A DNA stretch of 64,000 bases from a virus. Each line of letters starts with the position of its first letter. Position 1 is the first letter of the stretch. The stretch covers positions 1 through 64,000 of the IMG/VR virus record IMGVR_UViG_3300035698_029931; one strand, written 5' to 3'. Under the pieces are notes generated by a model. That model had not been told where the DNA came from and did not search any database. It saw nothing but the letters and a program-made list of their open reading frames with translations. A program made the translations under genes and the position numbers. Positions 1,090 to 15,297 of the stretch are shown in pieces.

Positions 1090-2202
1090 ATGCGTATAGG
1101 AATAGTGAGTACATTTAATGTAGAATGTGGAATAAGTACTTACACTGAGCATTTAGTTGAACATTATCCGGAAGGTCAAGTCCAAATTTTTGGTAATAAA
1201 CTAGGTGTTTTAACTGACACTGAAAACTGCCTTAAACACCCTATTTGCAGATGCTGGAGTCGAAAGGATGATTTAATAGAGCTTACCCACGCTCTTATAG
1301 AATCTGATGTGGATATTGTTCATATTCAGCATGAGTTTGGGTTGTTTCAGAATCAATCAGCATTTGTAGAAATGTTGAAAAAGTTAAGAGAAAAGAAGAT
1401 TCCCGTTGTAGTCACATTCCATACGATTTTCTCTGAAGACCATCTTAACAGTGCTATCCAACAAATTTCCACGTATGTTAACATAATCATTTGTCATGGG
1501 CAAGGAGGTAAGGATGCTCTTCGAAATGTTGGAGTTAACAACACCTCATTGCTTCCTCATGGTTCTGTAAAAGTACAGGCGCGTGGGCATGATGAAAGTC
1601 GTAAATATCTTAACATTCCTGATGATAAAACTGTTATCTTATCTTTAGGGTTCATCACCCCTAATAAGGGGGCAATGGATTCTGTTTCTGCAATTTATCG
1701 ATTAAAGTATGAATTTGAAAATCTCTATTTCTTGATAGTGGGGATGCCCGTGGTTCATGACAATAACTTTGCCAACATGGAGTATTGTTTAAAACTTTTT
1801 AAACGAGTGAAAATGCTCAGTTTATTCGACACTGTTCATATATATCCTAAGTATGTCAGTGAAAAAGAAATAGATTATTATGCGGGTGCATCAGATATAG
1901 CAATAGAGAACTATTATCCAACTCATCATTCTACTTCAGGGATGAGTCATTTGGTTATGAGTTATGGCTTACCTTCTATTTCTTCAAAAGCCAATATTCT
2001 TGCTGATTTAGATTCAACAAGAAGTTTAAAATATAAAATTGGCAACATTGAAGAGATGTCGCAAAAGTTGCGTATTTTAATTCGTAACGATGATATTAAG
2101 AAAAAATTGAAAGAAAACTGTTTAAGTTATGCTGAGGAAACTTCTTGGGATAAAACAGCAAACATACACATCGGTTTGTACAGCTCGTTGGTTGCTGAAT
2201 GA
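1090..2202 (+). CDS. Glycosyltransferase, GT-B fold (family 4-like)
   Basis: This 370-residue protein has the two-domain layout of GT-B enzymes, which move a sugar from a nucleotide donor to an acceptor. The N-terminal domain starts with RIGIVSTFN and has the HIQHEFG motif (residues 78-84) and an FHTIFS strand near 111, both common in GT4 proteins of the mannosyl/glucosyl type. The C-terminal domain has LSLGFITPNKG, a donor-binding region near 265-285 (IENYYPTHHSTSG), and a PSISS segment. The usual E-x7-E is not clean, so the donor cannot be predicted. It opens the glycan island, and its end lies 7 bases before the next gene. Confidence 0.8.
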   Translation: MRIGIVSTFNVECGISTYTEHLVEHYPEGQVQIFGNKLGVLTDTENCLKHPICRCWSRKDDLIELTHALIESDVDIVHIQHEFGLFQNQSAFVEMLKKLREKKIPVVVTFHTIFSEDHLNSAIQQISTYVNIIICHGQGGKDALRNVGVNNTSLLPHGSVKVQARGHDESRKYLNIPDDKTVILSLGFITPNKGAMDSVSAIYRLKYEFENLYFLIVGMPVVHDNNFANMEYCLKLFKRVKMLSLFDTVHIYPKYVSEKEIDYYAGASDIAIENYYPTHHSTSGMSHLVMSYGLPSISSKANILADLDSTRSLKYKIGNIEEMSQKLRILIRNDDIKKKLKENCLSYAEETSWDKTANIHIGLYSSLVAE

Positions 2203-2209
2203 GAGGGTT

Positions 2210-3268
2210 ATGGTAGAAAAAGGTTTAAGGGTGATGATTAACGGGTTTTACGGTGCTCACAATAGTGGTGATGAGGCGATGTTGCGCAATTTTGTTTATA
2301 ACATGCAAGCTCACGACCCTGAGTGCATCACATTGGTAGCCACTGATAAGGCTCAGTCATTCAACTATAAGAATGTTTATTTTGTTTCTTCAGAAGATCG
2401 TGCTCAGCTAACAGAAACGGATGCTTTTATCTTGGGTGGAGGGGATCTCACTCCAGCATTTGGGAATCAGCTTTTATTGCATGCGAAGAAAGTTGGTAAT
2501 AAATGTATTATGTTGGGAGCCAGTATCAATGATGATTGGTTGTATGAAAAGATGAGGGACATTTATGTAAAGTCTTTAGAATTATTTGATCTTATTTTTG
2601 TAAGGGATCTTCAATCTAAAGAAAATCTTGATAAGTTGGGAATAAAATGTTCAGTGAAAACTGATATATCAGTAGGTTTACCTTCTGTACCAATAGAGTT
2701 TAAAAAAAGTGATAAGCATGTTACTTTATGCATAAGGGAAGTTCATCCTGAGTATGAAGTGCGCATGGTTGCTTTGGCAAATAAGGTTGTAAGGTTTTTG
2801 TTAAAAGAAGGGTTTACAATCACTCTACTGCCTCTTTGTTATGAAGATAAAAGGTCTTATGAGTATTTTACGAAAATTGATCCTAAGATAGAGATGATTT
2901 ACACTCTCAGCCCTCAACAGCATAAATATGTTATTGGTAATTCTGATTATGTTATTTCATTGGGTCGCCTGCATCCTTTGATATATGCTATTGATACGGT
3001 TACACCTATGTTGGGAGTGGTTTATCCTATTCTTGAAACTCCCCGCTATCATAAGATGCCCGCGTGGTTTGAGTATATCAATAATGATTATTTGCTTAAT
3101 TTTAATTTGAAGATGAAGGATTTTGAGAAAAAGTTTAGGGAGTTGAATGATCATAAAGATGAAGTTAAAAAACAGTTAGTTATTCAAAAAAAATCTCATG
3201 ATAAGTGCAATAAAGAACAGTTTAACGAATTGATCAATTTTATAAAGGGAAAAAATGATAACACCTAA
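2210..3268 (+). CDS. Polysaccharide pyruvyl transferase family protein (CsaB/WcaK-like)
   Basis: Proteins of this family transfer pyruvate (from phosphoenolpyruvate) as a ketal onto sugars of surface polymers. The family's N-terminal loop GAHNSGDEAML is at residues 15-25, followed by GGGDL near 80 and SLGRLHPLIYA near 250, which corresponds to the conserved R-LH-LI-A motif. The start at 2210 (352 residues) is chosen because GAGAGGG lies just upstream; longer forms would run deep into the preceding glycosyltransferase. It sits between a glycosyltransferase and a methyltransferase, so it probably acts on the same glycan. Confidence 0.75.
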   Translation: MVEKGLRVMINGFYGAHNSGDEAMLRNFVYNMQAHDPECITLVATDKAQSFNYKNVYFVSSEDRAQLTETDAFILGGGDLTPAFGNQLLLHAKKVGNKCIMLGASINDDWLYEKMRDIYVKSLELFDLIFVRDLQSKENLDKLGIKCSVKTDISVGLPSVPIEFKKSDKHVTLCIREVHPEYEVRMVALANKVVRFLLKEGFTITLLPLCYEDKRSYEYFTKIDPKIEMIYTLSPQQHKYVIGNSDYVISLGRLHPLIYAIDTVTPMLGVVYPILETPRYHKMPAWFEYINNDYLLNFNLKMKDFEKKFRELNDHKDEVKKQLVIQKKSHDKCNKEQFNELINFIKGKNDNT

Positions 3269-3863
3269 TTCGATTAAAGAAGGGCCGCCAGAATATTATG
3301 ATAACGCCTTTTCTCGTGGAACTTACCCTAATTTTTTTCAGATAGCAGGGTATGTCATGGATTCTTTGGATCGGTTTAAAAGTGGTAAATTATGTGTAGC
3401 GGAAGCTGGCGTGAGACTTCCCGCATTTAAGCAGCCCTTTTTGGATATTGGATGCGGAATGGGTCGTGTTAGTCTGGTCGGTTATTATGGACATGGATTA
3501 CGGATAGATGGTGTGGATTTTTCTTCTTATGGTATCAATCTTGCAACATGTTACCAATTGAAGAATGTTACTTTTTATCAAAAAGACGTATGGAATTTTA
3601 CTGATTATGATAAATATTCAGTTTTTATTATGACTGAATTTTTAGAACACATTAAGGACGATGTTAGGTTTATCCGAGAAAAGATTCCGTCAGGGTCGTT
3701 GGTGATAATATCGTTACCCAGTCCATTGTTTGGGGATACGTATCATTTACGTTATGCTGAATCAGTTTCTGATATTGTTAATGCATATGAAAGTGAACTT
3801 AATTTCATCGAAGCCAAAGTCATTGGTACAGGGACTTATGGTGCAATAGCTTTGAAAAAATAA
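3255..3863 (+). CDS. Class I SAM-dependent methyltransferase
   Basis: A 202-residue Rossmann methyltransferase. Motif I is LDIGCGMG (63-70), motif II ends in the acidic VDFS (87-90), and the TEFLEHI segment near 130 is the motif IV equivalent seen in sugar and small-molecule methylases (Methyltransf_11/23 type). The gene overlaps the pyruvyl transferase by 14 bases with AAAGGG before its ATG. It probably O- or N-methylates a sugar of the glycan. The acceptor is not readable from sequence. Confidence 0.8.
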   Translation: MITPNSIKEGPPEYYDNAFSRGTYPNFFQIAGYVMDSLDRFKSGKLCVAEAGVRLPAFKQPFLDIGCGMGRVSLVGYYGHGLRIDGVDFSSYGINLATCYQLKNVTFYQKDVWNFTDYDKYSVFIMTEFLEHIKDDVRFIREKIPSGSLVIISLPSPLFGDTYHLRYAESVSDIVNAYESELNFIEAKVIGTGTYGAIALKK

Positions 3864-3864
3864 A

Positions 3865-4854
3865 ATGAAAATAACAATTGCAATAAATACAGCTCAGGTG
3901 GATTATCCTTATACGGCTTTTCCAAACACTCATTTATTCGAATTAACAATGAGAAGTTTGAGAGAACAAACTTTCAGGGATTTTGAGGTAGTCGTAGCGG
4001 ATGTAAATTATGATGAGCGAAAAGACTATTTCAAAGAAAATCCTGAAGATTTCCCAATTAACCATGTTAAAATTAAACCTAATGTGTGGATTCCGTTCAA
4101 TCATTTCGCTATTTCAACGACAAAAAACACTTGTCTATTACACGCTAAAGGCGGTATTGTTGCTTCTATTGGTAGTTGTGTTAGGTTTGATAAGCACTTT
4201 GTAGAAAAGGTTGTTGAGGGGGTTGAAGATGGAAATTGTATTATAAGTAGATTTTCGATTGAACGAGGCGATGAAATTGTTTTTAAAGATTTGCGACCTG
4301 ATGATGCTGTATCTGTTCACGGCAATGTGGCAGCTTCAATGGAAGATTGGTTACTCATTAACGGGTACGATGAAATGTATGACGGTTCCAAAGGGATAGA
4401 AGATTGTGATGTTGGAGAAAGACTTTTAAGAGCTGAGAAGGAAATTAAAATGATTGATGGGGGAGTGGTATACGAAGATCATATCACTTGTTATCCGTTG
4501 TTGACAAAATCTCCAAGATTTCAAAAGTGTCAATTTTTATGGTGGACAATTTCTGCTGATAGAAAACAGATTGCTGCGAATAAGAATTCCTTAACGGATC
4601 TTGAATATGATTATTTACAGTCTTGTAAGTATGGAGATACAAGAAGATTTTGTTTGAGAAATTTAAGGTGTATGTATTGTTCCGAAGATTTTGAATGTTT
4701 TTTTGGAAAGTCGGCTCATTTAACAAAACTCTATATGCATCCTTCATTGATATTTGATTTAAAAGAACAGCAAAAGAATCCAAGGTTAGCAGTTAAAAGG
4801 TTAGCGAAACTTTGTGAAATTGATAATCTTAAAAAATTTGTCGGAGAAGTGTGA
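3865..4854 (+). CDS. Family 2 (GT-A) glycosyltransferase with a degenerate DxD site
   Basis: This 329-residue protein aligns over its full length with the protein at 9334-10329: both share REQTFKDFEVV-type strands, the AISTTKNTCLL segment (82-92) and an ED pair in GIEDCDVG near 180 that would be the catalytic base. Where the paralogue has TDD at 102-104, this one has IGS, so the metal/donor-binding DxD is missing. It may be a pseudoenzyme, use a metal-free mechanism, or serve as a partner subunit. The start directly follows the upstream stop without a clear ribosome site, suggesting translational coupling. It shares a C-terminal HPSLIFDLKE motif with its paralogues. Confidence 0.75.
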   Translation: MKITIAINTAQVDYPYTAFPNTHLFELTMRSLREQTFRDFEVVVADVNYDERKDYFKENPEDFPINHVKIKPNVWIPFNHFAISTTKNTCLLHAKGGIVASIGSCVRFDKHFVEKVVEGVEDGNCIISRFSIERGDEIVFKDLRPDDAVSVHGNVAASMEDWLLINGYDEMYDGSKGIEDCDVGERLLRAEKEIKMIDGGVVYEDHITCYPLLTKSPRFQKCQFLWWTISADRKQIAANKNSLTDLEYDYLQSCKYGDTRRFCLRNLRCMYCSEDFECFFGKSAHLTKLYMHPSLIFDLKEQQKNPRLAVKRLAKLCEIDNLKKFVGEV

Positions 4855-4865
4855 GGGGTAAGGTC

Positions 4866-5384
4866 ATGGAAGATCATTTTCAAGAAAGATATGTCAAGCA
4901 TCAACAGCAAAAAGGGGAAGTCTTGCAGCAAATTGTGGAGGAAAGACATTCTAGTAGGATCTTTTCTGATAAAACAGTGAGTGGGGAGGATATTGACACG
5001 TTACTCGCCCACTCACTATATTGCCCTTCTTCTTGTAATAGGCATGCGATTGAATTATCTATTATTAGTGATAAGGATCTTAAGAATTTATTAGGCGGAA
5101 TATTGGTGGGTGGGGTTGGTTGGATAAATAGAGCAAGCCATATCATCCTTATTTTTGCTGATTCTGTTGCTTATAAAGCTGGAGATGAAGTTAAGTTTAT
5201 GCCATATTTGGATGCTGGAATCATTATTCATCAATTGTATTTAACTTCTGCTGCATTAAGGTTGAAGTGTTGTTATGTGAATCCCAACATTAGAGAAATG
5301 AATTATGATCATTTCAAGAAGGTTTTTAGTGATAAAATATTTTGTGGGGCATTCGCAATAGGGAAAGAGGTGAGTGTTGCCTAA
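4866..5384 (+). CDS. Nitroreductase-like flavoprotein
   Basis: The first 45 residues fit the FMN-binding nitroreductase pattern: ERHSSRIFSDKTVSGEDI followed by CPSSCNRHAIEL, corresponding to the R-S-R-F and A-P-S-x-x-N-xQ motifs. The later DAGIIIHQLYLTSAALRLKCCYVN matches the second conserved helix and strand. At 172 residues it is near the small end of the family. GGGGTAAGG precedes the ATG at 4866. Family members reduce nitro groups, quinones or dehalogenate; several sit in polysaccharide clusters without a known substrate. A redox step in glycan or cofactor chemistry is an inference. Confidence 0.65.
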   Translation: MEDHFQERYVKHQQQKGEVLQQIVEERHSSRIFSDKTVSGEDIDTLLAHSLYCPSSCNRHAIELSIISDKDLKNLLGGILVGGVGWINRASHIILIFADSVAYKAGDEVKFMPYLDAGIIIHQLYLTSAALRLKCCYVNPNIREMNYDHFKKVFSDKIFCGAFAIGKEVSVA

Positions 5385-6435
5385 AATCAGTGTGATATAC
5401 ACGACCGCAAGAGGTGATTGTCCAATGAGGGAGAGGCCTGGGGTGAATCAATTTTCTGTATTTTTGGATTCTCTTGAAGAACAGGTGTTTAAAGAAGAAA
5501 TTGAAGTGATCATTGTTGATGCATTGAAAGATGTGAAAATAGAAAATTCAAAATTGCCTGCGTATTTAACTGAACGTAAAGAATATAATTTTTCTAAGTA
5601 TTCTTTTCCTGTAAAGCACATCAAACCTCTTCCAAGTTGGTGGTTGGAACATGGGTTCAGTTCTTATTGTCATTGTGTTAATAGCGGTATTATTGCAGCA
5701 GATGGAGAATTGATTATTTTATTTGATGATTGTTCAAAGATAATGGGAAGAGAAAATATAAAATTGCAATGGGAATGGTATAAAAAAGGTGATGGTAAGC
5801 AGTTTGCAAGATCTATTTATGAATATTGGATTGGGGATAAACCAAGATTGAATTCTGTTGAAGGAAAGCCGTCGTTTGGGAAAATTGTAAGGCATATGAG
5901 TTATGACCGTTTAGAAGAAAAAAATAAATTGTATATAGAAGAGGAATCATTTGGTTCTTATGGGTATTATTCCTTTAGTTTGGATGTAATTTTAGCACTC
6001 AATGGATACAATGAATTGTTTGATGGAGCTAAAGGTGCAGAAGATTTTGATATTGGCAATCGTTTAATGGCTTATGGTTGTAGGTCTATCGTAGATATGA
6101 GATTGAGGGTAGTAGAGTTTTCTCATTATTCCACTGCGTTTCATGGTTTGAATGTTGGGGTGGGAAGAAAAAACAATGTTTCCACTCACGAAGCACTTTT
6201 GCATCTTTGGGAGCCTGATTGGAAGGATCGTGTTCGGGAGAAAAAAACTTTTATAAAAGCGAATGATAGACCTATGACCGAACAAGAATACAATTATATG
6301 TTAGAAAGGAACAAGGTTTATGTTCCTAATTTTGTAGAAGATGAAGTCATTAAAAGAATGAAAACTCATCCACCAATTTTTGATTTAAAAGATTTGAGGA
6401 AAAAATATCGTGAAGGGTTCTATAACGAGAAATAA
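5374..6435 (+). CDS. Family 2 (GT-A) glycosyltransferase
   Basis: A 353-residue GT-A protein starting PKISVIYTTARGD, with the donor/metal site LFDDCSK (DD at 118-119) and the acceptor-side GAEDFDIGNRL near 215. It ends with THPPIFDLKDLRKK, the same C-terminal signature as the proteins at 3865 and 9334, so the three are paralogues. The start is non-ATG: GTG at 5374 or TTG at 5377 follow GAGGTG, and the TTG has the better spacing. It overlaps the nitroreductase gene by about 11 bases. The DxD here is intact. Confidence 0.8.
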   Translation: MLPKISVIYTTARGDCPMRERPGVNQFSVFLDSLEEQVFKEEIEVIIVDALKDVKIENSKLPAYLTERKEYNFSKYSFPVKHIKPLPSWWLEHGFSSYCHCVNSGIIAADGELIILFDDCSKIMGRENIKLQWEWYKKGDGKQFARSIYEYWIGDKPRLNSVEGKPSFGKIVRHMSYDRLEEKNKLYIEEESFGSYGYYSFSLDVILALNGYNELFDGAKGAEDFDIGNRLMAYGCRSIVDMRLRVVEFSHYSTAFHGLNVGVGRKNNVSTHEALLHLWEPDWKDRVREKKTFIKANDRPMTEQEYNYMLERNKVYVPNFVEDEVIKRMKTHPPIFDLKDLRKKYREGFYNEK

Positions 6436-7015
6436 AAAGATTAAAGAACGTATTTACATTACTAAAGACGAGCTAGAATCTATTGAAAGTGGGCTGTCTT
6501 TAGATGCTCATATTCAACGATACGGATTTGTTCGTCAATATGCTCATGGGAATGTTTTGGATTGTGCGTGTGGATGCGGTTATGGAACTTATATGTTATC
6601 AAAGAACCCTGATGTTGAATCAATTGTTGGGGTGGATGTTTTAAAGGGAGCGATTGAGTATGCGAACCTTCATTTTACTAATGATAAAGTTTCTTTTAGG
6701 TGTGGCGATATCGGGAAGATGGTATTGTTGAAACAGGTTGATCAGTTGATTTCTATTGAAACAATTGAGCATCTTCAGTATCCCTTGGATTTAATAAATA
6801 TGGTTGTAAAGAATAATATAAACGAGTTGATCATTTCGTTCCCAACCAAAAAATCAACTCATTACAATAAATACCATTACCATGATTTTACCTTTAATGA
6901 CATTAAAATGTTATTAAGTGATCAATACAGAATAAGAGATTCGTTTGAATACAAAAGAGAAGTTGGGTTTGTTTTTTGTGTTCGATCAAAACTACAAGAA
7001 AGGAATAAGAAATGA
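6410..7015 (+). CDS. Class I SAM-dependent methyltransferase
   Basis: A 201-residue protein with motif I LDCACGCGYG (50-59), motif II VGVDVLKGAIEYA, and SIETIEHLQYP as the motif IV region, which places it with the UbiE/Methyltransf_23-like small-molecule methylases. The second half is short and carries THYNKYHYHDF, a segment often seen in capsule-locus methylases. It uses a GTG start with TTGAGGA upstream and overlaps the preceding glycosyltransferase by 26 bases. The target is probably a sugar hydroxyl, carboxyl or amine in the island's glycan. Confidence 0.78.
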   Translation: MKGSITRNKKIKERIYITKDELESIESGLSLDAHIQRYGFVRQYAHGNVLDCACGCGYGTYMLSKNPDVESIVGVDVLKGAIEYANLHFTNDKVSFRCGDIGKMVLLKQVDQLISIETIEHLQYPLDLINMVVKNNINELIISFPTKKSTHYNKYHYHDFTFNDIKMLLSDQYRIRDSFEYKREVGFVFCVRSKLQERNKK

Positions 7016-7779
7016 CAAAAGAAAAGTACAGTCAAATAGCGGAGATCACCACACCACCTCCACAAACTCCTTGGAATAAAGATACTAATAATCTTAGTTA
7101 CGTTTATTTTCCAAACTTAAAAACAGTTTATTGTATCACTTATCGAACAGCATCTACGTTCATTAAGAGATGGCTTTATAAGTGTGAGAATAACCTTGAA
7201 GAAACGGATGTCACTACAGCTACAGTTCCAATTCATCAATTAAAATGGAATCGTTTGACACCATTGCAAGTTTTGGATAAAAAAGATTGTTTAAGGTTCG
7301 CAGTCATTAGGCATCCAATAGACAAAATGTTGTCAATGTTCTATTGTTCTGTTTATAATAGGCCATATGATTTTAGATGGTGGAAAAGGTATTTGCCAAA
7401 CCGTAAAAATAATCACGTTTCTTTTGATGAATTTATGGAAGTGATTGCAGAAAGAACTGTTGATTGGGAAAATGCTGATATACATTGTTTTAATCAAAGC
7501 AGTTTACTAACTCATGATGACAAATATTTACCTACTCACATAGGTCTTTACAGTGACATTGAAAAGTTTTTGGCAAACATAGCAAAAATTAAGAATATTC
7601 TTCCTCCAGATTTTAATAAAAAGATTAACACTTCAGCGTATTGTTTGTACACTAAAGAAAAACGATCTGAGGTTTCTAAATATGCGAAAAAAATGATTGA
7701 AAAAAGATACGAGAAAGATTATGAATTGTATGATAAAGTTAAAAAATCGGGAGGGATGTTATTATGTCAAAAGACATGA
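7012..7779 (+). CDS. Sulfotransferase family 2-like protein
   Basis: This 255-residue protein has the two PAPS-binding motifs of carbohydrate sulfotransferases. The 5'-phosphosulfate loop equivalent is YRTASTFIKRWL (44-55) after a strand ending in VYCIT, and the 3'-phosphate motif is VIRHPIDKMLSMF (98-110), where Arg100 and Ser108 are the expected contacts. The Lys of the classical loop is replaced by Arg45. The gene directly below it (start 7764, 16-base overlap) is an APS kinase that would supply PAPS. Together they suggest that the phage sulfates a sugar of its own glycan or of a cell surface. Confidence 0.75.
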   Translation: MTKEKYSQIAEITTPPPQTPWNKDTNNLSYVYFPNLKTVYCITYRTASTFIKRWLYKCENNLEETDVTTATVPIHQLKWNRLTPLQVLDKKDCLRFAVIRHPIDKMLSMFYCSVYNRPYDFRWWKRYLPNRKNNHVSFDEFMEVIAERTVDWENADIHCFNQSSLLTHDDKYLPTHIGLYSDIEKFLANIAKIKNILPPDFNKKINTSAYCLYTKEKRSEVSKYAKKMIEKRYEKDYELYDKVKKSGGMLLCQKT

Positions 7780-8315
7780 CTTGGTTTACCATTATGTCAC
7801 AAAAAGTAATTTGGTTCACTGGACTCCCTTGTAGTGGGAAAACAACCGTGGCTGATTTGGTGGCAGAAGAATTGCATCGTTTTAATGTATACCCTGTTCG
7901 ATTAGATGGTGATGTTGTTAGAAAAGGGCTTTGTAAGGAGTTGGGGTTTTCTAAAGAAGATAGGCGTAAAAATTTAGAACGGATTGGTTATGTTTGTGAA
8001 ATTTTGAGTAACAGTAATGTTTTAACATTAGCCACTTTCGTTTCTCCTTACAGAGAAACAAGGGATTGGTTGAGGGAAAAAGTTGGTGAAGAAAATTTTG
8101 TTGAAGTTTATTGTAAATGTTCTGTTGAAGAATGTATCCGACGAGATGTGAAAGGAATGTATGCAAAAGCACTTAAAGGGGAGATTAAGGGTTTCACGGG
8201 CGTGGATGATCCTTATGAAGTGCCTCAAGAAGCTGAAATTGTTTTGGATACAGAGCGGGAAGAACCAAATGATAGCGGAAGAAGAGTTCTGGAAAGGATT
8301 CTTTTTAAACGATGA
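7764..8315 (+). CDS. cysC: Adenylylsulfate (APS) kinase
   Basis: The enzyme phosphorylates adenosine 5'-phosphosulfate to PAPS, the universal sulfate donor. All family hallmarks are present in 183 residues: Walker A GLPCSGKTT (20-28), RLDGDVVRKGL (46-56), the GFSKEDRRKN segment (61-70), the FVSPYRETR loop (92-100), KGMYAKALKGEIKGFTG and VDDPYE (147-152). GGGAGGG lies 8 bases before the ATG at 7764. A later ATG at 7794 would also leave the domain whole; the first ten residues look like a near repeat of the next ten. It overlaps the sulfotransferase gene and the next gene (ATGA). Confidence 0.92.
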   Translation: MSKDMTWFTIMSQKVIWFTGLPCSGKTTVADLVAEELHRFNVYPVRLDGDVVRKGLCKELGFSKEDRRKNLERIGYVCEILSNSNVLTLATFVSPYRETRDWLREKVGEENFVEVYCKCSVEECIRRDVKGMYAKALKGEIKGFTGVDDPYEVPQEAEIVLDTEREEPNDSGRRVLERILFKR

Positions 8316-8536
8316 AGAAGTTAAGAAAAATTAAACTTGGTACATTAGGGGTATCGGGTATTTTTTACCGTATTCATATTATCATTCTTCAATCGATTTT
8401 TTTCTACATTCTCACAGGGGAGTGGAAATGGGCGATAGGAACTTCGATATTATGGAATGCCATTTGCACATTGTTATATTATAATTACCATTATTGGTTT
8501 GCTAGGTTATTCAAAATAGGGAGGAATAATGAGTGA
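8312..8536 (+). CDS. Small membrane protein, DUF2061-like
   Basis: A 74-residue basic protein with two hydrophobic stretches (about 20-35 and 42-58) around LTGEWKWAIGTS, ending in YYNYHYWFARLF. The order helix, TGxW, helix, Y-Y-x-HYW is the DUF2061 pattern. Family members are small membrane proteins of unknown function and are often found beside APS kinase or sulfation genes. The gene overlaps the APS kinase stop by ATGA, so the two are translationally coupled. A role in sulfate or PAPS handling is conceivable but not shown. Confidence 0.6.
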   Translation: MKKLRKIKLGTLGVSGIFYRIHIIILQSIFFYILTGEWKWAIGTSILWNAICTLLYYNYHYWFARLFKIGRNNE

Positions 8537-8972
8537 AGAAATAAAAACAATAAAACACATCATGGACGTCCAGGGGTTCATTTCAATTATAGTGGGTGAA
8601 TTGGAAACGAGAGCAAGATTTCATGATAGGTCGAAGCTATATTCTCCTGAAGTAGAAACATTTGATGTTTATTCTAAGAAGCTCAAGGGGTGTACTTATA
8701 ATAGCGAGGAGTATAAGCAGTTTTTAAAAGGGATGAAGCCAGCTTTAGATCATCATTATGCTGAAAATAATCATCATCCAGAACATTGGGAAAATGGCAT
8801 TGCCGATATGGATTTGGTTGATTTAACAGAGATGCTTTGCGATTGGAAGGCTGCTACACTTAGGCATGATGATGGGGATTTAATAAAAAGTATAGAGCAA
8901 AATCAAAAGAGATTTGGATACTCTAACGATATAAAAAAGCTGTTATTAAAAACGGCAAGGAGATTAAAATGA
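8529..8972 (+). CDS. DUF5662-like phage protein
   Basis: A 147-residue protein with conserved histidines arranged as in DUF5662: RARFHDRSKL near 28-37, then HHYAENNHHPEHW near 76-88 and CDWKAATLRHDDGD near 107-120. The His/Asp pattern resembles an HD-like metal site, but the catalytic activity of the family is unknown. A strong AGGGAGGA precedes the ATG. It overlaps its upstream neighbour by 8 bases and its downstream neighbour by ATGA. Such genes are frequent in large phages. Confidence 0.6.
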   Translation: MSEEIKTIKHIMDVQGFISIIVGELETRARFHDRSKLYSPEVETFDVYSKKLKGCTYNSEEYKQFLKGMKPALDHHYAENNHHPEHWENGIADMDLVDLTEMLCDWKAATLRHDDGDLIKSIEQNQKRFGYSNDIKKLLLKTARRLK

Positions 8973-9337
8973 GGAGCATGTTTATTGGTCGATATCAACC
9001 GTTTCATGAGGGTCATTTTACGCTCATTAATGAGGTGTTGAAGGAAGAAGGTGGCAAGGTGTTAATTGCTTTGCGTGATACACCTATCCGGAATACAGAT
9101 CCTTATTCCATTGAAGAGCGTATTGAAGTGATTAAGGTTTATTTTCCTGATGCAGTTTTTTATCCTTACGAAAACGGTTGGAAAAGTGCTGACGTGGTTA
9201 TTGTAGGCATTCCCGACATAGGTGAAGTTTGTTATGGACGAAAGGTTGGATGGGGTATGAGGGAAATCAAGTTGGATGAAAAAACAGAAGCAATTTCAGC
9301 AACGAAGATTAGAGCAAATATGAAAGAAGAGAAATGA
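8969..9337 (+). CDS. Cytidylyltransferase/NMN adenylyltransferase-like nucleotidyltransferase
   Basis: The protein has the nucleotidyltransferase HxGH signature in GRYQPFHEGH (7-16) and the C-terminal ISATKIR motif that closes the active site in NMN adenylyltransferase-type enzymes. At 122 residues it is a minimal domain, shorter than most NadM proteins. It may activate a sugar or polyol phosphate with CTP or ATP for the glycan island, or it may take part in NAD salvage. The location between a DUF5662 gene and a glycosyltransferase favours the former only weakly. Confidence 0.7.
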   Translation: MRSMFIGRYQPFHEGHFTLINEVLKEEGGKVLIALRDTPIRNTDPYSIEERIEVIKVYFPDAVFYPYENGWKSADVVIVGIPDIGEVCYGRKVGWGMREIKLDEKTEAISATKIRANMKEEK

Positions 9338-10329
9338 AAATTTCGGTTTGCATGAATACAGCACGTGCCGATAGATGTACGGGAAGGGAAACAAATTTCC
9401 ATATTTTTGAATATCTCATGGAGGGGTTGAGGGAACAAACTTTTAAGGATTTTGAAGTTGTTATTTGTGATGTTTTGTGGGAACAAAGAAAAACATATTT
9501 CATAGATCATCCAGAAAAATTCCCAATAAAACATATTCCACCAAAACCAAACATATGGGTTCCTAACGGTTACTGTGCTATTTCTACAACTAAGAATACT
9601 TGTTTACTTTATGCGCAAGGTGAAGTTGTAGTTTTTACAGATGATTATTCGACTTTTTCTCCAAAACATTTGGAACTTATTGTTGATAAAGTCACTGAAA
9701 CACACTGTGTTGCCAACACTTATAATATTTATGCAGATGACGAGTTGGTGCATAGGGACAGGAGGAGGTCTGCACGCAATTTAGTTACTTACGGGAATAT
9801 AGCATTGTACCTTGAAAGATTTTTAGATCTCAATGGTTATTGTGAAATGTATGATGGTTCAAGGGGGTTAGAAGATTGTGATATGGGGGTTAGGATGCTT
9901 AGGAGTGGAATGACCACTGAATTGATACAATATCCTGTAAAGTATCAGCGTCACATTGAAAATTATCCATTACAAAAGAAAAGCAATATAAAATGTCCGA
10001 GATTAGCCGAAACTTTATCCAACAATGATTATAGAAAAGGCATTCATCGAGCGAATGAGATTCCCTACACTGATGAAGAAATGAAGATACTTTTTGAATG
10101 TTCTAATATTGTTCAAGGTCATAGATGTAAATATGTTGATAAGCATGGAAAACCTGTAGTATGTACTAGCGGTTTTATTGAAGGTGGTAATCCTAGATAC
10201 AGTGATACACATTTAATTGATAAGTTCACCAGACATCCATCATTACTTTTTAGCCTTAAAGAAATGAGAAAAGACGTCCCAATGGCTTTAGAGAAGCTAA
10301 AGGATGTTTGTAAAGACATGTTGCCTTAA
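9334..10329 (+). CDS. Family 2 (GT-A) glycosyltransferase
   Basis: A 331-residue GT-A enzyme starting MKISVCMNTARAD, with an intact FTDDYSTF donor site (TDD at 102-104) and the acid/base segment RGLEDCDMGVRML near 177-190. It is a close paralogue of the protein at 3865-4854, and the alignment needs no gaps through the first 110 residues. The C-terminus has HPSLLFSLKEMRKD, shared by all three island GT-A proteins. It overlaps the previous gene by ATGA. The intact DxD suggests that this is the active copy. Confidence 0.82.
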   Translation: MKISVCMNTARADRCTGRETNFHIFEYLMEGLREQTFKDFEVVICDVLWEQRKTYFIDHPEKFPIKHIPPKPNIWVPNGYCAISTTKNTCLLYAQGEVVVFTDDYSTFSPKHLELIVDKVTETHCVANTYNIYADDELVHRDRRRSARNLVTYGNIALYLERFLDLNGYCEMYDGSRGLEDCDMGVRMLRSGMTTELIQYPVKYQRHIENYPLQKKSNIKCPRLAETLSNNDYRKGIHRANEIPYTDEEMKILFECSNIVQGHRCKYVDKHGKPVVCTSGFIEGGNPRYSDTHLIDKFTRHPSLLFSLKEMRKDVPMALEKLKDVCKDMLP

Positions 10330-13827: not shown

Positions 13828-15297
13828 ATGAATCCGGATTTAATTTTTGGTCAAGATGCTTTTGTAGCTGATACAGATATGTTGGAAACTTTAACCAAAA
13901 CCTTAACGGCAGGTTATGGTTATGAAGGTGCTCCTGGAGCACTGGCTGGTGGTGGAGCTTTGCAGGTTGAATCTCTTGATTCAACTATGAGATCGGTTAC
14001 CTGGGATTATCGTCATCTCAGAGCATGGCCAATCTTCCCGAAAGACAAGGCGTTCAATACGGTTGAACAGTATAACCGTGAAACCAGTTATGGTAGCCAG
14101 CAAAATGGTGGATTTTTTGATGCGGATCTTGGTGTCGCGCCACAGGCTCATGATGCTAACTTCCATCGTGAAATCCAGAAGGTGAGATATATCGGTACTA
14201 CGCGTCAGGTTGCTCACCCGTTGACATTGGTCAGAACAGCTAATGGCCCTGCCATTGCTCTTCAGATTCAAGCTGGAACGATGTGGATTTTAGAGCAGTG
14301 GGAACGTCAGATTTGGGAATCCAACGGCTATTTTCAAAATACAGCTAATGGGTATTTCACTGGTGATCCTGCACATATTCCTGCTGCAACTGTAAAGTTT
14401 AATGGTATGGATCAGCAGATCCGATACGGCCAGGCAGATGCTTCGGCTCAGTATACGGGTTGGGATGGTTATAATCCAGAAACAACGGTTGTAACTAATA
14501 TGGATGGTGCGGTTCCTGATGAGGATGATCTTACGGAATGGGCTTATTTGCAGTCACTTAATTTTGGTACACCTACCCATGCTTTTTTACCACTAAAAGC
14601 TGTGGCAGATGTTTCTAGAACGATGTTGCCAAAAGAACGTGTAATTCCGGCAGGCACCGAAGGACGCGGTGGATTCTTGATGACTGAATTTATCGCTGCA
14701 ACAGGTGTTTTTAAGATGGTTGGTTCGAGATTCTTAGAACCTAAGCGTGCTCCGATGGTTACAGCTCAAACAGGTGCCCCAGTTCTTCCGGTCATAGGTG
14801 CAACTGCAGCAGAAGCTACGGGTGCTGGTGAAACTTCTGAATTGGCAGCTGGTAATCATTACTACAGGGTTTCAGCTATCAATCAATTTGGCGAATCACT
14901 CGCTGCTGCTCAGGCTGGCCCAATTGTTATCGTGGCAGGTCAGAGGGCTAGAATCGCCATTAATGGTGGTACGGTTGGAGCTCTTTATTATGCGATTTAT
15001 GAATCGCAGACTAACGGTTCTGGCTGGGAATTTGTAGGATATGTTCGAGATACGAATGCTGCAGGTGGAGCAGGTGCAATCTTCCGTGACGCTGGTAAAC
15101 TTCAAAGAGGTTTGGGTCATGGATATCTGCTTCAACTTGATGCGCTTAATGCGATTTGGAGACAGCTTGCTCCATTGATGAAGATGGATCTTGCTATCAC
15201 AGGTCCGGCCTTTAGGTGGATGCAACTTCTATACGGTACACCGATAGTTTTTGCTCCGCTTCATAATTGTATTATGGATAATATCGGTAGAGCGTAA
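13828..15297 (+). CDS. Major capsid protein with an inserted fibronectin/Ig-like domain
   Basis: A 489-residue protein placed after the scaffold-like gene and before neck genes. Its codon use is visibly richer in G and C than its neighbours, as expected for the most abundant virion protein. Residues 1-310 and 430-489 look like the HK97-type shell. Residues about 315-425 form an insertion with HYYRVSAINQFGESLA and YYAIYESQTNGSGWEFVG, the strand pattern of a fibronectin type III or Ig-like domain. Such insertions usually project from the capsid surface. A strong AGGAGG precedes the ATG, and a terminator follows the gene. Confidence 0.8.
   Translation: MNPDLIFGQDAFVADTDMLETLTKTLTAGYGYEGAPGALAGGGALQVESLDSTMRSVTWDYRHLRAWPIFPKDKAFNTVEQYNRETSYGSQQNGGFFDADLGVAPQAHDANFHREIQKVRYIGTTRQVAHPLTLVRTANGPAIALQIQAGTMWILEQWERQIWESNGYFQNTANGYFTGDPAHIPAATVKFNGMDQQIRYGQADASAQYTGWDGYNPETTVVTNMDGAVPDEDDLTEWAYLQSLNFGTPTHAFLPLKAVADVSRTMLPKERVIPAGTEGRGGFLMTEFIAATGVFKMVGSRFLEPKRAPMVTAQTGAPVLPVIGATAAEATGAGETSELAAGNHYYRVSAINQFGESLAAAQAGPIVIVAGQRARIAINGGTVGALYYAIYESQTNGSGWEFVGYVRDTNAAGGAGAIFRDAGKLQRGLGHGYLLQLDALNAIWRQLAPLMKMDLAITGPAFRWMQLLYGTPIVFAPLHNCIMDNIGRA

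Follow-up and report, generated by a model that had tools for sequence, protein, structure and literature searches.

Two enzyme types, Sat and CysDN, are known for the textbook reaction in which ATP and sulfate give APS, and APS kinase (CysC) converts APS to PAPS. An APS-kinase homologue can also serve another substrate: in the Campylobacter phosphoramidate pathway it acts on CDP-phosphoramidate. Phage cysC has already been published as an auxiliary metabolic gene (AMG) and placed in assimilatory sulfate reduction (PMC10914622), and nadM is one of the viral AMGs listed in a study of seamount viruses (PMC11018836). Here we analysed a window of 64 kb, the first part of an 88,948-bp virus record, where an APS kinase gene is embedded in an operon (7012-9337) that we read, with a probability of about 0.8, as a phage sulfation set leading from sulfate through APS and PAPS to a sulfated product.

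The operon genes and the glycosyltransferase, methyltransferase and pyruvyl transferase genes of the island all lie on the plus strand. The original prediction had placed overlapping genes for a sulfotransferase, an APS kinase and a DUF2061-like protein inside a glycosyltransferase/methyltransferase island ahead of the capsid genes, and both the genes and their surroundings are as it described them. The three open reading frames are found at 7012-7779, 7764-8315 and 8312-8536, sharing 16 bases at the first junction and 4 at the second. The operon extends past them to a DUF5662 gene (8529-8972; PF18907, E 1e-36) and to a gene for a compact HxGH nucleotidyltransferase (NTase) of 122 aa (8969-9337; PF01467, E 9e-9), with further overlaps of 8 and 4 bases. 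The surrounding island includes genes for a GT4-type glycosyltransferase (1090-2202; PF00534, E 2e-9), a polysaccharide pyruvyl transferase (2129-3268; PF04230, E 3e-22), a SAM-dependent methyltransferase (3255-3863; PF13489, E 1e-7) and two putative glycosyltransferases, one GT2/galactosyltransferase-like (3865-4854; PF02709, E 7e-5, just below the Pfam cut-off) and one weaker (5374-6435; PF02709, E 0.002, below the cut-off). Two further island genes abut the operon with 4-base overlaps, a methyltransferase immediately 5′ of the sulfotransferase (6410-7015; PF13649, E 2e-8) and a glycosyltransferase immediately 3′ of the NTase (9334-10329; PF02709, E 3e-6, and PF00535, E 4e-6). The major capsid gene follows downstream at 13828, its product about 30% identical to SPO1-like and Bacteroides phage proteins. 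The island also holds a nitroreductase-family gene (4851-5384; PF00881, E 5e-14), and its pyruvyl transferase would offer a second route to an acidic group on the glycan. In a sister contig of 109 kb the sulfotransferase, kinase and NTase are identical and their order is kept; its sample prefix is shared with another relative.

The product of 7012-7779 had been proposed to be a sulfotransferase, and it matches PF03567 (Sulfotransfer_2) with E 6e-16 and 59.7 bits against a cut-off of 22. Its 3′-PB motif, RHPIDKMLSMF, has the R...S signature, and in a comparison of 42 highly divergent sulfotransferases from viruses R100 never varies and S108 hardly does. A scan of these 42 proteins gave tallies made up almost entirely of sulfotransferase families, and the best matches in a fold search with the window model (pLDDT 78) were sulfotransferases, all weak (E 0.15 or worse). 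The family assignment is strongly supported, and the protein is a probable PAPS user. The adjoining gene (7764-8315) was likewise confirmed as a predicted PAPS-forming APS kinase of the CysC type, scoring 200.8 bits with TIGR00455 (E 1e-59; cut-off 138.7) and 189.6 with PF01583 (E 4e-56; cut-off 21.1). Against solved APS kinases it reaches E 1e-43, and its motifs (P-loop GLPCSGKTT, LDGD, SPY, RDVKG and FTGxDDPYE, the last reading FTGVDDPYE in the window) align with those of solved enzymes and of viral relatives, strongly supporting its place in the canonical APS kinase family.

The small membrane protein of 74 aa encoded at 8312-8536 had been called DUF2061-like. A search of Pfam DUF2061 (PF09834) with this protein alone gave no hit, and its remote membership is seen in a profile-profile comparison (hhalign), in which its family matches a Pfam-positive DUF2061 family at 93.7% (E 2e-7). 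Viral DUF2061 genes adjoin the APS kinase gene or are fused with it, and such fusions number 14 in total. Among 148 sampled Flavobacteriales genomes, 21 of the 34 DUF2061 genes in the matches listed are at most 3 kb away from CysD or APS kinase, and several stand beside CysD with no kinase nearby, which ties DUF2061 to sulfate activation generally. The protein may thus be a membrane partner of sulfate activation, as an anchor or in the handling of sulfate.

Family models label the NTase as NMN-adenylyltransferase-like or cytidylyltransferase-like. Its N-terminal half is closest to archaeal NMN adenylyltransferases (E 5e-13), and a fold search with its AlphaFold2 model (pLDDT 93.3) ranked PPAT/NMNAT first and ATP sulfurylase 24th, with nothing under E 0.001. 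Taken by itself, then, the sequence says adenylyltransferase-like. The NTase lacks the QTRNP-HxxH motif and the PUA_2 domain of Sat/MET3 and carries GRYQPFHEGH; across an alignment of 95 sequences G7, R8, G15, H16, R36, G90, R91, G94, S110, T112 and R115 are invariant and H13 is conserved in 99%. A possible link to ATP sulfurylase is seen in weak matches of 23 of the 95 NTases to PF01747 (best 6e-6) and in an hhalign comparison with this Sat family, at 80%, that covers the C-terminal part. A Sat profile found no match among the open reading frames of the virus record.

Scanning viral contigs for relatives of the kinase and of the NTase yielded 137 non-redundant loci, 116 of them with an NTase; because the loci were fetched with these proteins as queries, the counts that follow describe the set and not a random sample. 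An APS-kinase-type kinase is present within the same ~12 kb in 114 of the 116 NTase loci, at a distance of at most 1.5 kb in 110 and fused or within 100 bp in 88, and a DUF2061 protein is present in 74. NTase-kinase fusions occur in 27 viral loci, in both orders. The kinase is canonical in 84 loci and of a short divergent form, with a less certain substrate, in 51. Sulfotransferases of several families are encoded in 44 of the 137 loci, and 25 of the 53 genes lie within 100 bp of the set, where random placement, assumed uniform, would give 2.1. They were found in 32 of the 84 loci with a canonical kinase and in 12 of the 51 with a divergent one, a non-significant difference (p 0.09), and a control set of viral loci with glycosyltransferases only was too small (n=5). 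The pair had been thought unusual for a phage; the kinase/NTase/DUF2061 set is not peculiar to this one but widespread in environmental phages, though scarce in an isolate-dominated phage collection, where five records match the kinase and none matches the sulfotransferase or the DUF2061 protein. In the family phrog_10255, named "kinase", the first half matches the window kinase and the second half the NTase, which makes it look like a family of APSK-NTase fusions. One viral locus (L014) encodes near its record end a mannose-6-phosphate isomerase C-terminal/cupin-type protein (7636-8085; PF01050, E 5e-7).

Clues to the reaction catalysed by the NTase came from cellular genomes. A scan of genome contigs gave 38 NTase loci, and eight of the 38 genomes also carry a known sulfurylase (six Sat, two CysD); some of the MAG contigs with an NTase could be viral in origin. 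We examined two orders more closely, those of a Flavobacteriales MAG (G008, with locus L232) and of a SAR11 genome (G034, with locus L258). Among the 148 Flavobacteriales genomes Sat was found in none, and the 63 with an APS kinase divide into 57 with CysD and six with the NTase, with none having both or neither (Fisher p 1.5e-8, a value that, like those for SAR11, ignores phylogeny and comes from genomes without reported completeness). The Flavobacteriales NTase gene lies directly 3′ of the kinase gene, in the slot held by CysD in the others.

In SAR11 we know of no ATP sulfurylase partner for aprBA. Across the 147 SAR11 genomes NTase and AprA occur together in 102 and are both missing from 27, with only one of them present in 8 and 10 (p 1.7e-14), and the NTase gene lies within 1.5 kb of aprA in at least 39 genomes, in two arrangements. 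CysD was found in nine SAR11 genomes, all of them lacking the NTase (p 1.8e-6); Sat-type matches were found in three of the 147. Two SAR11 contigs show the order CysH, DUF2061, kinase, NTase. Some SAR11 NTases (L305, L306 and L293) are paired with a short kinase in which NADEVR replaces DGD and SPY is absent, and the substrate of this kinase may be other than APS.

Further sulfate-linked contexts were found outside these two orders. The Nitrospirota locus runs Rrf2, sulfite reductase, CysH, NTase and contains no kinase; its CysH scores above the APS-reductase model cut-off. Four Nitrospirota genomes with the NTase have Sat too, and in three that were read a Sat-APS kinase fusion is encoded elsewhere. 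NTase and APS kinase genes are accompanied by an inositol-phosphatase-family (CysQ-like) gene or by sulfotransferases in Flavobacteriales, Chitinophagaceae and DPANN archaea. At three loci from Bacteroidetes and a marine group III archaeal contig (L225, L233 and L245), SAM synthetase (metK) and methionine-cycle-like genes adjoin the NTase, and in one of them, a marine Bacteroidetes SAG (L225), a second small cytidylyltransferase-like open reading frame (5551-5949) lies between the APS kinase and the NTase. In a tree of 129 NTases, which is unrooted and so gives no direction of exchange, and which rests on few columns with unsettled bootstrap values, the cellular members require 14 label changes, at least 10 of them forced by well-supported branches, and therefore NTase genes have been exchanged repeatedly between viruses and cells. 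The side of the tree that holds the window NTase includes SAR11, and the Flavobacteriales and Nitrospirota NTases fall on the other side, so that a sulfate-linked context is present on both.

These observations suggest how the operon would work. The NTase (8969) would convert sulfate and ATP to APS, which the APS kinase (7764) would phosphorylate to PAPS. The sulfotransferase (7012) would move sulfate from PAPS onto an acceptor, the likeliest being a sugar made by the glycosyltransferases of the island. The membrane protein of the DUF2061 family (8312) probably assists sulfate activation at the membrane. The catalytic steps are deduced from sequence and gene context, and the glycan as acceptor is likewise our reading of the island. 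That the NTase is an ATP sulfurylase is well supported on these grounds; it very probably makes APS, and therefore the phage need not rely on a host ATP sulfurylase. The replacement of CysD or Sat is seen in genomes for the cellular relatives of the NTase and not for the window's own copy. The original proposal that phage enzymes carry out the sulfation thus stands as the best reading, with its sulfotransferase and PAPS-forming kinase supported and its virion or host surface glycan as a candidate acceptor; what it missed is the NTase as the probable source of APS. More broadly, we consider it likely that the NTase represents a third ATP sulfurylase family, so far unrecognised, that is widespread among phages and has been exchanged repeatedly with cells. 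It would serve the supply of PAPS in phage sulfation sets, take the place of CysDN in some marine Flavobacteriales and be the sulfurylase partner that AprBA lacks in SAR11.

Three other explanations have to be weighed. The phage might use host APS and bring only the kinase and the sulfotransferase, with the NTase serving an unrelated purpose such as NAD salvage or a CDP-/ADP-linked precursor. The NMNAT-like N-half fits this, as do some viral loci that have an APS kinase and no NTase (for example L008, L010 and L104), but the fusions in both orders and the near-constant adjacency of NTase and kinase, the mutual exclusion of NTase and CysD in two orders and the aprBA and CysH neighbours all argue against it, and we regard it as improbable. 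As for NAD salvage by a NadM-type enzyme, the window NTase misses both NadM model cut-offs, with 28.9 bits against 181.2 for the archaeal NMNAT model and 38.7 against 127 for the other; this assignment was rejected on these scores and on the sulfate-metabolism contexts.

It is considerably less probable still that the kinase and NTase produce a donor resembling PAPS but carrying a different group, in the manner of the phosphoramidate pathway, and that the "sulfotransferase" transfers that group. Divergent kinases at many loci would suit such a pathway, and the NTase also falls in a cytidylyltransferase-like Pfam family; yet the window kinase is of the canonical type and exceeds the APS kinase cut-off, CysD replacement and the CysH and AprBA neighbours point to sulfate, and CysQ-like phosphatase genes occur in several cellular clusters. 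A phosphoramidate-type pathway was accordingly thought unlikely. We give equally little credence to a role of the set in sulfur assimilation, for cysteine, during infection, which is how phage cysC is usually written about and which the CysH-linked NTases of cells would accommodate. The window set belongs to a glycosyltransferase island, its kinase gene overlaps that of a sulfotransferase, and in many viruses sulfotransferase genes gather around the set. No CysH or sulfite reductase was noticed among the window open reading frames, which were read as protein up to 16 kb, by inspection and not by profile search.

If the NTase is an ATP sulfurylase, the textbook reaction gains a third enzyme type, one that labels such as NMN-adenylyltransferase and cytidylyltransferase have concealed in SAR11 genomes and many environmental phages; the nadM AMGs of the seamount viruses (PMC11018836) may include members of this family. 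Phages could then make PAPS without a host sulfurylase, and some marine bacteria that have an APS kinase or APS reductase and neither CysDN nor Sat would be explained. A search of the open-access literature with a few sets of terms found no report of this NTase as an ATP sulfurylase, which is not proof of absence. Phage cysC genes would then be parts of sulfation sets and not of sulfur assimilation, and the reported readings deserve re-examination. PMC10914622 assigns its phage cysC to assimilatory sulfate reduction; the window kinase stands in a proposed sulfation set, next to a sulfotransferase and together with a putative sulfurylase.

Among known systems, the set most resembles PAPS synthase and the Sat-CysC fusions, where ATP sulfurylase and APS kinase are fused or adjacent as in the viral APSK-NTase and NTase-APSK proteins; it differs in that the NTase domain has only about 120-135 aa, without the QTRNP-HxxH motif and the PUA-like N-domain, and has a NadM-like N-half. 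With archaeal NMN adenylyltransferase (NadM) the NTase shares the HxGH motif, the fold and the sequence of that half, whereas its invariant R36 and G90-R91-x-V-G94 motif, its scores far under the NadM cut-offs and its sulfate-metabolism contexts set it apart. CysDN belongs to another superfamily and has another fold. The NTase takes the same slot after cysC in Flavobacteriales operons, but as one small protein with no GTPase subunit seen alongside.
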